From Phycisphaeraceae bacterium (GTDB taxonomy: Bacteria; Planctomycetota; Phycisphaerae; Phycisphaerales; Phycisphaeraceae): a stretch of 64,000 bases of DNA. Made by a program: the position numbers and the translations under genes. The stretch is from contig PAIY01000099.1 in NCBI GenBank assembly GCA_002704825.1, positions 1 to 64,000 on the forward strand, given 5' to 3'. Below, one piece after another: positions 53,915 to 60,002 of the stretch. Numbering within the stretch: the first letter of the stretch is position 1; each line of letters starts with the position of its first letter. Below the pieces are notes generated by a model, which was not told the DNA's origin, made no database searches, and saw nothing but the letters and a program-made list of their open reading frames with translations.

Positions 53915-54769
53915 TTATTTCCTGCGATACATCGACGCACCGATGCGGGTGAACTGTTTGAGCTGTGGCCCCTGGATACTCTCTGCGTGGCCGATCATAA
54001 ACAGGCCACCGGGTTTGAGGAGTCGCAGAACCTGATCGATGATTTTGCTGCGAACATGATTGTCGAAATAAATCATCACATTACGGCAGAAAATGGCGTC
54101 CATCGGCCCCTTCATCGCATAGGGGGCTTCGGTCAAGTTCAAACGGGCAAAGGTGATCATGCGACGTAAATCAGGACTGACCTGTTGCATGCCTGTGGAT
54201 CGGTCGAGTTTGAAATAGCGATTGCGTTCCTCAACAGGAATCGGCTTGATGGCTTCGGTGGGATATTGGCCGACTTTGCAGATCGAAAGCATCTTGGTGG
54301 AGATGTCGGTTGCAAGAATTTTGGCATCGACTTCATTGTGACCAGCCAGGTTCAAGGCGCGTCGGATCACGATGGCCAAGGTGTAGGGTTCCTGGCCGGA
54401 TGAACTGGCTGCCGACCAGATACGCAGTCGTTTTTGGCCGGCGCGAACCCACTGATCGACCGCTTTCAGGAGTTCTTCAAAGTGATGCGGTTCACGGAAA
54501 AACGCGGTCACATTGGTTGAGACGACATTGATCAACTCAACCCATTCATCTTCCTGAGCCTCATTGACCAGAAAATCAAGGTAGTCGGCAAAGCTGCTGA
54601 GCGAAAGGTCTCGCAGACGTTTGCGGATACGGGCGCTGAGCATGGTCCGCTTGGTATCGCGTAAGGTGATGCCACAGCGATCATAGATCATGGAACGTAA
54701 CTTGTTGAACGTGGTCGTATCCATGGGACCACTGTCCTGTATCAAACCCAATCCCGCTTGTATTGCCAT
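53915..54769 (-). CDS. cheR: Chemotaxis protein methyltransferase CheR
   Basis: The 284-residue SAM-dependent methyltransferase methylates Glu residues of chemoreceptors. VSTNVTAFFREPHHF, WSAASSSGQEPYTLA (SAM loop), ILATDIS and RNVMIYFD are the CheR signatures. GGAG lies 8 nt before the ATG at 54769. It is the last gene of the che operon, 94 nt after the haem-type receptor gene. No CheB, CheA or CheY is in this operon. Confidence 0.93.
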   Translation of the reverse strand: MAIQAGLGLIQDSGPMDTTTFNKLRSMIYDRCGITLRDTKRTMLSARIRKRLRDLSLSSFADYLDFLVNEAQEDEWVELINVVSTNVTAFFREPHHFEELLKAVDQWVRAGQKRLRIWSAASSSGQEPYTLAIVIRRALNLAGHNEVDAKILATDISTKMLSICKVGQYPTEAIKPIPVEERNRYFKLDRSTGMQQVSPDLRRMITFARLNLTEAPYAMKGPMDAIFCRNVMIYFDNHVRSKIIDQVLRLLKPGGLFMIGHAESIQGPQLKQFTRIGASMYRRK

Positions 54770-54863: not shown

Positions 54864-56597
54864 TTAGAACTCAGAGAAATCGTCATCGTCATCCAGCGGA
54901 ATCACCTGCTGAGCGTGTGCCTTGGCCGGTTGAGCTTGCTTACGCGGTGCCGGCTTGGACTGATGTGAAACAGCAGGCGTCTTCACCGGTTTGACTCTTG
55001 TTTTGGCACGATGATTACTGCTGCCTTCACCGAAGACGGTGGCGACCAATTCGTTGACCATGCAGTTCAGATCCTCTGCCTGGGCGCTGAGTTCCTGACT
55101 GGCGGCGGCGGACTCTTCACTGCTGGCCGCGTTGGCCTGAGTGACCTGGTCCATCTGTCCCACGGCCTTGGTGATCTGATCAATGCCATCGGCCTGCTCG
55201 GTACTGGCGGAGGAGACCTGATTGATCAGCTGGGTCACGCGTGAGACGGCATCGTCAATCTGTGAAAGTGACGCTTCGGCTTCTGAGGCCACATCCACAC
55301 CTTGATCGGCATTGCGACAGGCGTCTTCGATCAACTGGGCCGTTGACTTGGAGGCTTCGGCACTGCGTTGAGCAAGGCTGCGGACTTCTTCAGCAACCAC
55401 CGCGAATCCCTTGCCAGCTTCACCGGCGCGGGCGGCTTCGACAGCAGCGTTCAAGGCAAGCAGGTTGGTCTGGAAGGCGATCTCATCAATCGTCTTGAGA
55501 ATGCTCGCTGTCTGGTCGGACGAACTCTTGATCTTGCTGATCGTCTGAGTCAGACGTTGCATGGCTTCGTTACCCTTAACCGACACCTGTCGCGCTTCTT
55601 CTGCCATGGTGTTGGCTTCCTGAGCGTTTTGAGCATTCTGTCGGACGGTGGCATTCATCTGTTCCAGTGAAGCACTGGTTTCTTCAAGACTCGATGCCTG
55701 TTCCGAAGCACCTTCTGCCATGGCCTGGCTGGAGCCGGAGACCTGACCGGATGCCTGGGAAACCTGGTCTGCACCACTTTCCATGCGATCGATAATCCGA
55801 CGCAGGGGCAAGCCCAGGACGCGATGGGTCAAGCCGATCAAGCTGACCACAGCCAAAGTCAACAAACCAATCATCCAGATGGCACTGGACTTGGTGAAGC
55901 TTGCCACCTGATTGTCAACCAGCGACATGGGCATCGCCACTTCGAAAGCACCATGCATATCACCGACCTTCCAGCCTTCCATGGGAAATCCAAGTACGTC
56001 AAGGCCGTCCTGATCCGGATCGTACTTGCCACGCGGCTGACCATGGCAACTCATGCAGTCTTCGGTGAGTTTGATGGAACGAAAGTAGTGAAGTGTGTTG
56101 GTCTGCTCATCAATACGGTAAACGGCTTCGTCGCCACCCTTCTTGATCTGATCTTCAAGATCCTGGAGCAAGGTAGCGCGAAATGAGCCGGGCTGCGGTT
56201 CATTGGCTTTATTACGGGCCTCAAAAGCGAGCACCTTAAAGTCCAACCCTTCACGTTTGGCAGCTTTTTCGGCAGCCAACCAACCGGCGACAACCGGGAT
56301 GGACTGGAATGCATTGGTGGCCTTGTAGTCACCTTTGTTCTTGCGAACCGTTTGCATTTCTTCAACGATGGATTTGTTGTCGAAGAGATTGAGATTATTC
56401 ATCTTGGCAACGTGATTCTTGGTTTCATCAGCCACCGCGGTGAATGATGCAGCCCGGTCAGCCATGGCATGTGTGATGTTATCACGATACTTGCTGATGA
56501 ACACGTAATTGATGACGACTGCAACCAGCAGCATCAACACAATCACGGTCAAAACAATTTTTGAGGTGACACCCATCGATTTGAAAAGTTGAAGCAT
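54864..56597 (-). CDS. Methyl-accepting chemotaxis protein with c-type haem sensor domain
   Basis: The 577-residue receptor has TM1 (about residues 13-33), a periplasmic domain with a CxxCH haem motif (CMSCH, residues 181-185) in the Tll0287/DUF3365 style, TM2 (about 236-258) and a long cytoplasmic coiled coil. The tip [20 protein letters not shown] and the flanking methylation helices are typical. The C-terminus ends [11 protein letters not shown]. The haem suggests redox, O2 or NO sensing. It is 127 nt after the larger receptor gene. Confidence 0.9.
55060..55730 (-). repeat. Near-identical signalling-domain DNA, copy 1
   Basis: The DNA coding for the receptor signalling domain here is nearly the same as 56930-57600 in the neighbouring receptor, with long runs identical even at third codon positions. 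This suggests recent duplication or gene conversion. Confidence 0.8.
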
Positions 56598-56724: not shown

Positions 56725-59412
56725 TCAGAAATCACTCATGTCATCATCGTCATCCAGCGGAATCACAGTGGATGCTTGAGACTTTGAGCTTGCATGTGAA
56801 GCTGCCACTTTTCTGGGCTTGGGTGCATGTGACTTGGTCACTTTGGCAGGTGTTGAACGCATGCTGCGATTGACCTTGCGCTGACCCATCACCATGCCTA
56901 CCAACTCATCGACCATGCTGTTGAGTTCTTCGGCCTGGGCACTGAGTTCTTCACTGGCTGCAGCGGACTCTTCACTGTTGGCAGCATTGGCCTGAGTGAC
57001 CTGGTCCATCTGACTCACAGCCTTGGTCACCTGATCAATGCCATCGGCCTGCTCGTTGCTGGCAGAGGAGACTTCGTTGATCAGTTCGGTCACCTTGGTC
57101 ACCGCTGCATCAATCTGGGTCAGTGACGCTTCGGCTTCTGAAGCCACGTCCACACCTTGATCGGCATTGCGACAGGCGTCTTCAATCAATTGAGCCGTTG
57201 ACTTGGATGCTTCGGCACTGCGTTGAGCAAGGCTGCGGACTTCTTCAGCGACCACCGCGAATCCCTTGCCAGCTTCACCTGCGCGGGCGGCTTCGACAGC
57301 AGCGTTCAAGGCAAGCAGGTTCGTCTGGAAGGCGATCTCATCAATTGTCTTGAGAATGCTTGCTGTCTGGTCGGAGGAATCCTTGATCTTGCTGATCGTC
57401 TGCGTCAGTCGCTTCATGGCTTCATTGCCCTTGACCGACATGCTGCGGGCTTCTTCAGCCATGCTGTTGGCAGACTGTGCGTTTTGAGCATTCTGACGGA
57501 CGGTGGCATTCATTTGTTCCAGTGAAGCACTGGTTTCTTCAAGACTCGATGCCTGTTCCGAAGCGCCTTCTGCCATGGATTGGCTGGAACTTGAAACCTG
57601 GTCAGATGCCTGCGAAACCTGCGAGGCACCGTTTTCCATACCATCAATAATGCGACGCAACGGACGGATGATGCCTGAGGCAATGAAGAAGGCCAGGACG
57701 CTGCCGATGATGATGGTGAGGATCGCACCCGTGGAAGTGAGCACACTGGAGGAATTGATCTGAGCAAGCATTTTTTCCTGTTGCCCTTCGCCAAGATGTT
57801 GACATTCATCAACAAAGTCCTTGACCGCTGTCACGAGACGCCCTTCGGACGTATACTTTTCGCCCATCAGTTCGCCCCACTGATCGACTGACTTCTGATA
57901 GTCAACCGCCAGTTTTTTCAGATCGTCAACGGTTTTCTTGTCACGGGGATCAAGGAGTTTTTCAACCAGTCCATCACAAAGCTCCAGAATCTTTGCCACG
58001 GATTCGTGGTTTTTATCCAGGTAAGCTGTATCCTGGTGCATCATAAAATTCATTTCATGGCGACGAGCGATACCCGCCTGAATGATCAGTTCGCCAGCCG
58101 TATCTGAAGTCCACTGTTTGCGCTGTTCATCTGCAAGCAAAGTCTTCTTCAGTTCAACCAATTCTTTTTGCTGCTCTGTTTGAAATGTGTCGCATTGGGC
58201 AAAGAAGACGTTGGCATGCTCGATCATCTTTGATTCGGTTTGACTCTTACTATCAAACAGCGATGCCCACTTCTTGAAAATCTGTTCGTATTGTTGCAGA
58301 TCGTCTGTCAATTCCCTGACACGTTCACGGTCGACTTCCTCTTTGAGAGAATTCAAGAGCTTCGTGCATTGGTTGTTAAGTTGTGCAACCGTCTGCAGAA
58401 GTTTCTTGTTGCTTGCCTCATCCTGCTTGACCATGTAATCCTTTTCAAGGATACGGCATTCCTTGGCCAATTGGATCATGGTTTCAGCCGTCTGCACCTG
58501 GGTTAGCTTGGTCTGAATCACCTGTTGTTGGACTTGTCCGGATTTGACCAGTTCGGTAATCTCAGATGCTTGTTCATGGGCCAGTTTTTCGCAAGTGTCC
58601 TGGAATTTATCGGCAATGGCATCAAGTTCTTTGCTCAATTTGTCCTGGGCACTGTCGTATTCCTGCCAGGTTCCAAGGCCCTGCTTGTATTGCATGGCAT
58701 GGTTCTTGAGTTCAGCGATCAGCTGCTGGTCCTTGGGGTCTTTCAGGGCGGCGATCAGTTGATCAGCAGCATCAGCAATCTGTTTAACGGTCTGATCATT
58801 CTGCTGAAGGTATTGTGCCTCTTTGGTCTGCATGTACTTGATGACTTCAACGCGGCAGGTCTTGGAAAGCGTGCGTAGTTCAGCAGCCAATTCCACCGTC
58901 AGGAGTTTGTCTTCCTGATCTTTGCGGGACTTGTCTTTTAACTGAGCCAATTCAGCTTTCTCTTCTGCTCCCAGTTCATCACATTCCGTGATGAAGTTCT
59001 GGGCCAGGGAGGCCATGCGATCTTCGGCCTGAGACTGTTGATTATCGAGTTGGACCCAATGCGCCAGAGCATCCTGATACTTCTTGGCTTGATCCTTGGC
59101 CTGCATGATGCCTGCGCGGTCCGTCGGATCCATGAATTTATCGTGTGTGATCTGGATCTGTTCGTGAATTTCCTTGAGCACCTTGGCGTTTTCATCCAGA
59201 TCCGATTGCTGCCCTTTACGCATGTAAAGCAGATTGAGAACACGGGCATCCTTGGCCATATTCACCAGTCGATTGGTATCACTGGCCTTGTCGGTGATCT
59301 GCTGAATTTTGTCGACAGCATTAAAGCCGATGTATCCCAGAATGCCGGTGAGGATCAGAACCACTGCAAAGCCTGACGCGATTTTCTTTCCTACAGTCAT
59401 TTTCCCAAACAT
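56725..59412 (-). CDS. Methyl-accepting chemotaxis protein with four tandem helical modules
   Basis: The 895-residue receptor has TM1 (about residues 12-31) and TM2 (about 562-582), with a ~530-residue ligand-side region made of four repeats of about 131 residues. Each has a (Y/F)M start (63, 193, 326, 456), a conserved Trp (119, 249, 382, 512) and a Cys exactly 25 residues later (144, 274, 407, 537). They look like HBM-type helical bundles in tandem. The cytoplasmic part has the [20 protein letters not shown] tip and ends [11 protein letters not shown]. It is 47 nt after cheW. Confidence 0.9.
56930..57600 (-). repeat. Near-identical signalling-domain DNA, copy 2
   Basis: Partner of 55060-55730. 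The two copies lie in the same orientation about 1.9 kb apart, so unequal recombination could fuse or delete the receptors. Confidence 0.8.
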
Positions 59413-59459: not shown

Positions 59460-60002
59460 TTATGCTGCGACTGCAGGTGTGTTACCTGCATTATTCCCAG
59501 CCGTTTTGACGAGTTCATTTAAGTCCATTGCTGAAAGGACACGCTGAATGTCGAGTAACATGACCACGCGTTGACTGATCTTGGCCACACCGCAGATGTA
59601 GTTCATACTCATATCTGCACCGATGCTCGGCAGGTTGTCGATCTGGTCTTCCTGAATGTCAAGCACTTCGTCGACTTCATCAACCAGGATGCCGATCTGA
59701 ATGACCTGATCTTCGTAGTTCATCTCCACGACGATAATGCAGGTGACTTCGGTGTCTTTCTGTGCCTTCATGCCAAACTTCTGACGCAGATCGACCACTG
59801 GGATGATCCGGCCACGCAGGTTGATCACACCACGGACATACTCAGGCGTTCTGGGGACATGGGTGATGTCCATGAGTCCGATGATTTCACGGACCGCAAG
59901 CAGCGAGACACCGTACTGTTCCTGGCTCAGATGAAACGTCAGATACTTTCCGACCAGGTCACGAACATTGGTTTGAGTGATTGTTTTTTCCTGTTCCGAC
60001 AT
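59460..60002 (-). CDS. cheW: Chemotaxis coupling protein CheW
   Basis: The 180-residue protein has the CheW fold: [48 protein letters not shown] and a C-terminal region with [18 protein letters not shown]. It couples receptors to the CheA kinase. It is the first gene of the operon cheW-mcp-mcp-cheR. A tail of about 20 residues (Asn/Ala-rich) follows the fold. Confidence 0.93.

Follow-up and report, generated by a model that had tools for sequence, protein, structure and literature searches.

The window (the whole 64,000-nucleotide stretch of DNA that was analysed) encodes an 895-amino-acid (aa) methyl-accepting chemotaxis protein (MCP) which, on its predicted model, is probably a transmembrane chemoreceptor with each limb of an HBM sensor doubled: modules M1 and M2 would run up, the chain would turn once at residues 292–295, and M3 and M4 would run down, giving four stacked four-helix bundles. 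The predicted sensing rod is roughly double the best-known type in length. Computation demonstrates the repeats, their HBM homology, their conservation and a set of turn signals located at the array centre. More interesting than the fourfold repeat itself is the rule that the chain appears to turn exactly at the array's midpoint.

A four-module receptor and its neighbourhood

The receptor and the same-strand genes around it comprise the following features, in window coordinates.

59460–60002 (minus strand): CheW, lying upstream in the same orientation (PF01584, E 2e-37)
56725–59412 (minus strand): MCP of 895 aa whose ligand-binding region has four modules (open reading frame; PF00015 and two HBM stretches)
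59326–59382 (minus strand): first transmembrane segment (TM1), residues about 11–29; hydrophobic segment seen in the sequence, at the start of predicted helix 7–66
58933–59325 (minus strand): M1, residues 30–160, with W119 and C144, predicted ascending limb (module profile 32–159, E 1e-32; AF2 helices)
58543–58932 (minus strand): M2, residues 161–290, with W249 and C274, predicted ascending limb, first helix continuous with M1 (profile 161–288, E 2e-33; continuous helix 96–196)
58528–58539 (minus strand): predicted distal turn, residues 292–295, at the array centre, where the paralogue carries its CZB insertion (sole AF2 helix break between modules; longest joint, with Gly)
58144–58542 (minus strand): M3, residues 291–423, with W382 and C407, predicted descending limb (profile 295–422, E 1e-34)
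57754–58143 (minus strand): M4, residues 424–553, with W512 and C537, predicted descending limb (profile 426–552, E 1.5e-38; continuous helix 359–459)
57679–57744 (minus strand): second transmembrane segment (TM2), residues 557–578 (AF2 helix 557–578, low pLDDT)
56995–57465 (minus strand): MCP signalling domain, residues 650–806 (PF00015, E 1e-44; Tsr-type PDB match)
56728–56766 (minus strand): acidic C-terminal tail (by sequence; many related receptors end alike in IP(L/M/F)...F)
54864–56597 (minus strand): second MCP, with a Tll0287-like domain containing CMSCH (PF11845, E 6.5e-19; PF00015)
53915–54769 (minus strand): CheR methyltransferase (PF01739, E 4e-56)

The sequence-only reading had called this protein a chemoreceptor, an identity borne out by the Pfam match of its signalling domain (PF00015, E 1.1e-44). 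Its same-strand neighbours encode CheW, a second receptor and CheR, and it probably works with this CheW and CheR; the whole genome holds about 17 receptors. A HAMP domain between TM2 and the signalling domain is usual in MCPs, though not universal. None was matched there by Pfam up to E 1, and the genus receptors have a short linker from TM2 to the signalling domain (57613–57680 in the window) instead of a full HAMP. The relatives G071 and G665 do possess HAMP, unlike the window receptor. The CMSCH motif in the Tll0287-like domain of the second receptor (54864–56597) likely marks a c-type haem sensor. The acidic tail with its IP(L/M/F)...F ending, common among related receptors, may be a tether for CheR, CheB or CheD, like NWETF.

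Four repeats of ∼131 residues had been described in the ligand-binding region, with Trp at positions 119, 249, 382 and 512 and, 25 residues beyond each of them, a Cys (144, 274, 407 and 537). Both descriptions hold: the repeats align pairwise 13–18 s.d. above shuffled controls, and the positions are exact. These four pairs (119/144, 249/274, 382/407 and 512/537) are the only ones at that spacing in the protein, and when the ligand-binding region was shuffled, at least four W–C pairs at any single spacing up to 60 occurred once in 100,000 shuffles. The module bounds lie at about 31–160, 161–290, 291–423 and 424–553; the region also contains Cys at 186, 319, 349 and 479 and a fifth Trp at 434, and its self-match at 263 residues is stronger than that at 130 residues. 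The pattern is kept in orthologues, whose loss of it would have spoken against the repeat: the two orthologues found within the genus, one of them 46% identical, retain all four pairs, as does a paralogue of 27% identity. The four-module W/C feature is real and conserved.

Module pairing, predicted fold and arrays in relatives

Profile comparisons relate the module to the HBM family. Pfam HBM (PF16591) scores 57.7 bits in total against a cut-off of 29.8, with two stretches (M1+M2 and M3+M4) each over the cut-off. A single-module profile searched against the PDB matches two stretches of McpS (E 4e-11), two stretches of the ancestral PcpI (E 1e-17), and one stretch of 9smy, a 158-residue domain (E 8e-9). 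Since McpS and PcpI are matched twice and 9smy once, one module corresponds, judged by sequence homology, to half an HBM, which gives the window protein double the usual count; because each module is homologous to half an HBM, Pfam scores two HBMs. The array had been read as four HBM-like units, of which the four HBM-like helical repeats stand; they are not four HBM domains, as one HBM comprises two modules (Pfam ‘HBM x2’). The body of papers searched contained none describing tandem HBM domains.

The AF2 model was built from a shallow alignment of four sequences and has a mean pLDDT of 82 and a pTM of 0.51; rod-shaped proteins tend toward low pTM. Helices are predicted at 7–66, 69–92, 96–196, 199–222 and 226–291 and, after a break, at 296–329, 332–355, 359–459, 462–485 and 489–554. 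The M1/M2 and M3/M4 joints fall inside the unbroken helices 96–196 and 359–459, and 292–295 is the single break between modules. With the outer joints unbroken and M2/M3 alone broken, the model puts two modules up and two down; M1 would lie beside M4, and M2 beside M3. McpS aligns to model residues 170–417, i.e., M2+M3 (Z 20.8, 2.6 Å over 235 residues), and TorS to the same stretch. Since the McpS fold falls on M2+M3, four four-helix bundles would be stacked along the rod. The earlier reading had proposed structure prediction and profile comparison with HBM; carried out, these supported the HBM-like repeats, but not the number of HBMs that it implied.

The counterpoint to this up-up-down-down fold is that Pfam pairs the modules as M1+M2 and M3+M4. 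In an alternative reading, which we consider unlikely, the protein has two ordinary tandem HBMs, each pair folding back on itself and the two standing side by side near the membrane. Exactly these pairs exceed the Pfam cut-off, the 263-residue self-match is the strongest, and the paralogue's CZB between the two HBMs would follow from simple concatenation. However, no helix break is predicted at either joint within a pair, even with M3+M4 folded alone, a model that remains extended and superposes on McpS at an rmsd as high as 39 Å; and the McpS alignment covers the middle pair and neither Pfam pair. Arrays in relatives (below) likewise argue against the tandem arrangement: their outer joints are fixed or stepped by 7 or 11 residues, loops and Gly/Pro residues sit at the centre, and relatives with three or five modules are not divisible into HBM pairs.

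The search for arrays covered relatives, the order, the class, the phylum and two families, and full proteins were scanned with the module profile; the genus relatives, Planctomycetes bacterium syqfu and Phycisphaerales bacterium UBA7800, were found by an alignment query. Across Planctomycetota relatives, receptors carry two, three (G071, G381, G665 and G771), four (the genus, its paralogue, G338, G410, G386, G492 and G583) or five (G401 and G505) modules. The fourfold repeat is therefore less isolated than had been thought. What stands of the claim that it is unusual is that it has twice the usual number of modules; the relatives with three and five modules, and the alignment of McpZ to most of the model, make it less singular. 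In M3 of the four-module G338 receptor (L083), part of the C/D segment is present a second time (+24 residues), which may reflect duplication of part of a module.

Several features of these arrays, separate in kind from the AF2 prediction, mark the centre: joint lengths, insertions and deletions, Gly/Pro residues and CZB positions. All 9 of 9 four-module receptors have two outer joints of the same length and a longer one at the centre; these are related sequences and not statistically independent. Of 34 outer joints, 31 measure 23, 16 (−7) or 12 (−11) aa; length changes by 7 or 11 residues are expected where the helix is continuous. A Gly or Pro is present in nearly every centre joint (18 of 19) but in 11 of 34 outer ones. 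These sequences are again related and not statistically independent, so that Fisher values for such comparisons serve as no more than a guide. In odd-numbered arrays the turn signal shifts into the middle module, which has a C/D segment of 19–23 residues (6/6), whereas the segment is 17 residues long in 66 of 72 other modules and longer in 6 of 72. All five CZB domains found in arrays (the G000 paralogue, G081, G333, G515 and G615) are central, and low-complexity loops are likewise at the array centre. The exceptions are the two-module proteins G435, G440, G454 and G515b, whose M1 has three extra residues inserted in C/D, and G381, whose joints are irregular. A heptad-register check of the long helices was mildly informative and was left out of the evidence.

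These observations suggest a ‘telescoping’ sensor family, an idea for which we see the balance as roughly even: a ∼130-residue module present one to five times, a turn at the exact centre, and a rod tip that offers a docking place for domains such as CZB. Even arrays would turn between the two middle modules and odd arrays inside the middle module, and the four-helix-bundle sensor, HBM and the longer rods would form a single series. If the centre-turn rule is true, domain databases mispair the modules of long HBM receptors, stepwise evolution of receptor length has a simple account, and nature provides a series of two, three, four and five bundles, some bearing a tip domain and some not, in which to study how a signal is carried along a rod to the membrane.

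As for mechanism, we infer by analogy with McpS-type receptors and TorS relatives that the doubled-limb receptor acts as a dimer, and that one or more of its bundles respond to a small molecule or to a binding protein carrying its ligand. Helix movement would then pass through TM2 and the shortened linker to the Tsr-like signalling domain.

Several receptors of the genus and order show other architectures. The paralogue (L015:1689-4763, on contig C200 of G000) carries a zinc-binding CZB domain between M2 and M3, apparently in the periplasm, and has W/C pairs in all four modules; it is the genome's one match in a PF13682 search, and Pfam finds no CZB in the window protein. A kinship between W-x24-C and the W...C of CZB was considered and rejected as coincidence: some CZBs have a 25-residue spacing, but the modules lack the CZB His and have no PF13682 match. 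The syqfu copy of the paralogue (L016:4855-6807) has an in-frame deletion of CZB, M3, M4 and TM2 that joins M2 to the signalling domain, and is possibly inactive. Adjoining the UBA7800 orthologue is a receptor (L018:8224-10569) in which three CZB domains replace the usual ligand-binding region. Chemoreceptors of about 1000–1085 aa from the same order (L021, L023, L030, L032, L034 and L045) have a beta-carbonic anhydrase before an HBM-type region and an MCP domain; Pfam confirms the fusion in L023 and L032, and the other four are assigned by sequence motif alone.

The tryptophan and cysteine columns

Within the genus and the paralogue, the only invariant module columns are R28, Y83, W90 and C115 (18/18 modules). 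Outside the genus, Y83 and R28 are near-universal, the W90 column is Y, W or F in 45 of 63 modules, and the C115 column holds Ala in 25, Cys in 21, Val in 6, Ser in 4 and other residues in 7 of the 63. Ala or Cys in most modules and mainly Val, Ser or Thr in the rest is the pattern that a small core residue would show. The substitutions suggest that the Trp serves as an aromatic and the Cys as a small residue packed in the bundle core, a role that we infer from the sequences.

The cysteines had been proposed as possible ligands of metal or haem, which would put one such site in each module. Strict conservation of the Cys within the genus would suit such a site, and designed haem-binding four-helix bundles appear among the structural matches, although this shows common shape only. 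The proposal was rejected and is very improbable: the modules lack the ligands, with no His or second Cys conserved at the same position in all of them and no CxxCH; Ala replaces the Cys in many relatives; and Trp and Cys, on one predicted continuous helix, would be about 37 Å apart (25 × 1.5 Å).

Cross-module disulphides, also raised before, would be compatible with the stacked rod: the D-helix C144 and C274 would bond the B-helix C479 and C349 of the opposite limb and report oxidation. C144/C479 and C274/C349 would lie level in the stacked model, reckoned at 1.5 Å per residue. Throughout the genus and in the paralogue, each of the four modules has its Cys, and outside the genus Cys is about forty-fold enriched at the C115 column (21/63 versus a 0.8% background). 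Moreover, a B-column Cys is accompanied by a D-column Cys in the partner module in 13 of 15 cases. Co-occurrence within the same module is nearly equal (12/15), however, which does not tell partner from self, and shared ancestry may therefore explain the pairing. Furthermore, helices B and D should sit diagonally across a four-helix bundle, at a distance usually too great for such a bond, C407 and C537 are without such a partner, and many relatives have Ala at the site. We regard such a redox switch as quite improbable, and core packing in the doubled-limb rod as the preferred role.

Comparison with known helical sensors

McpS (PDB 2yfa/2yfb; PF16591) contains the same module twice, and its two stacked four-helix bundles are reproduced by M2+M3 of the predicted model (Z 20.8). 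Where McpS has two modules and two bundles, the window protein has four modules across its ligand-binding region and, on the predicted model, as many bundles. Each module's Arg (R57, R187, R320 and R450) aligns onto an Arg that reportedly contacts ligand in McpS; neither the W nor the C is seen in the McpS alignment. The TorS sensor domain (PDB 3o1j and 3i9w) likewise shares the fold of the M2+M3 part (Z 16–17), but belongs to a histidine kinase, is HBM-sized, and has a partner binding protein, TorT.

The periplasmic domain of McpZ from Sinorhizobium meliloti (PDB 8f7n), reportedly a three-module helical fold, is a long helical rod of which 360 of 364 residues align to model residues 43–544 (Z 17.8). 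It differs in length (364 residues versus about 525 here), superposes at an rmsd of 10.3 Å, and has no sequence match to the module profile. The source for this domain is Salar et al. 2023 (Proteins 91:1394), as cited in PMC7617929.

CZB (PF13682) receptors offer a last comparison. Helicobacter pylori TlpD is a cytosolic CZB receptor (PMC6715182). The paralogue and four relatives bear a CZB at the array centre, whereas the window protein is without one, and the relatives' CZB, lying between TM1 and TM2, would be periplasmic. Such a CZB at the rod tip would mean that an established zinc/redox sensor lies beyond the cell membrane.
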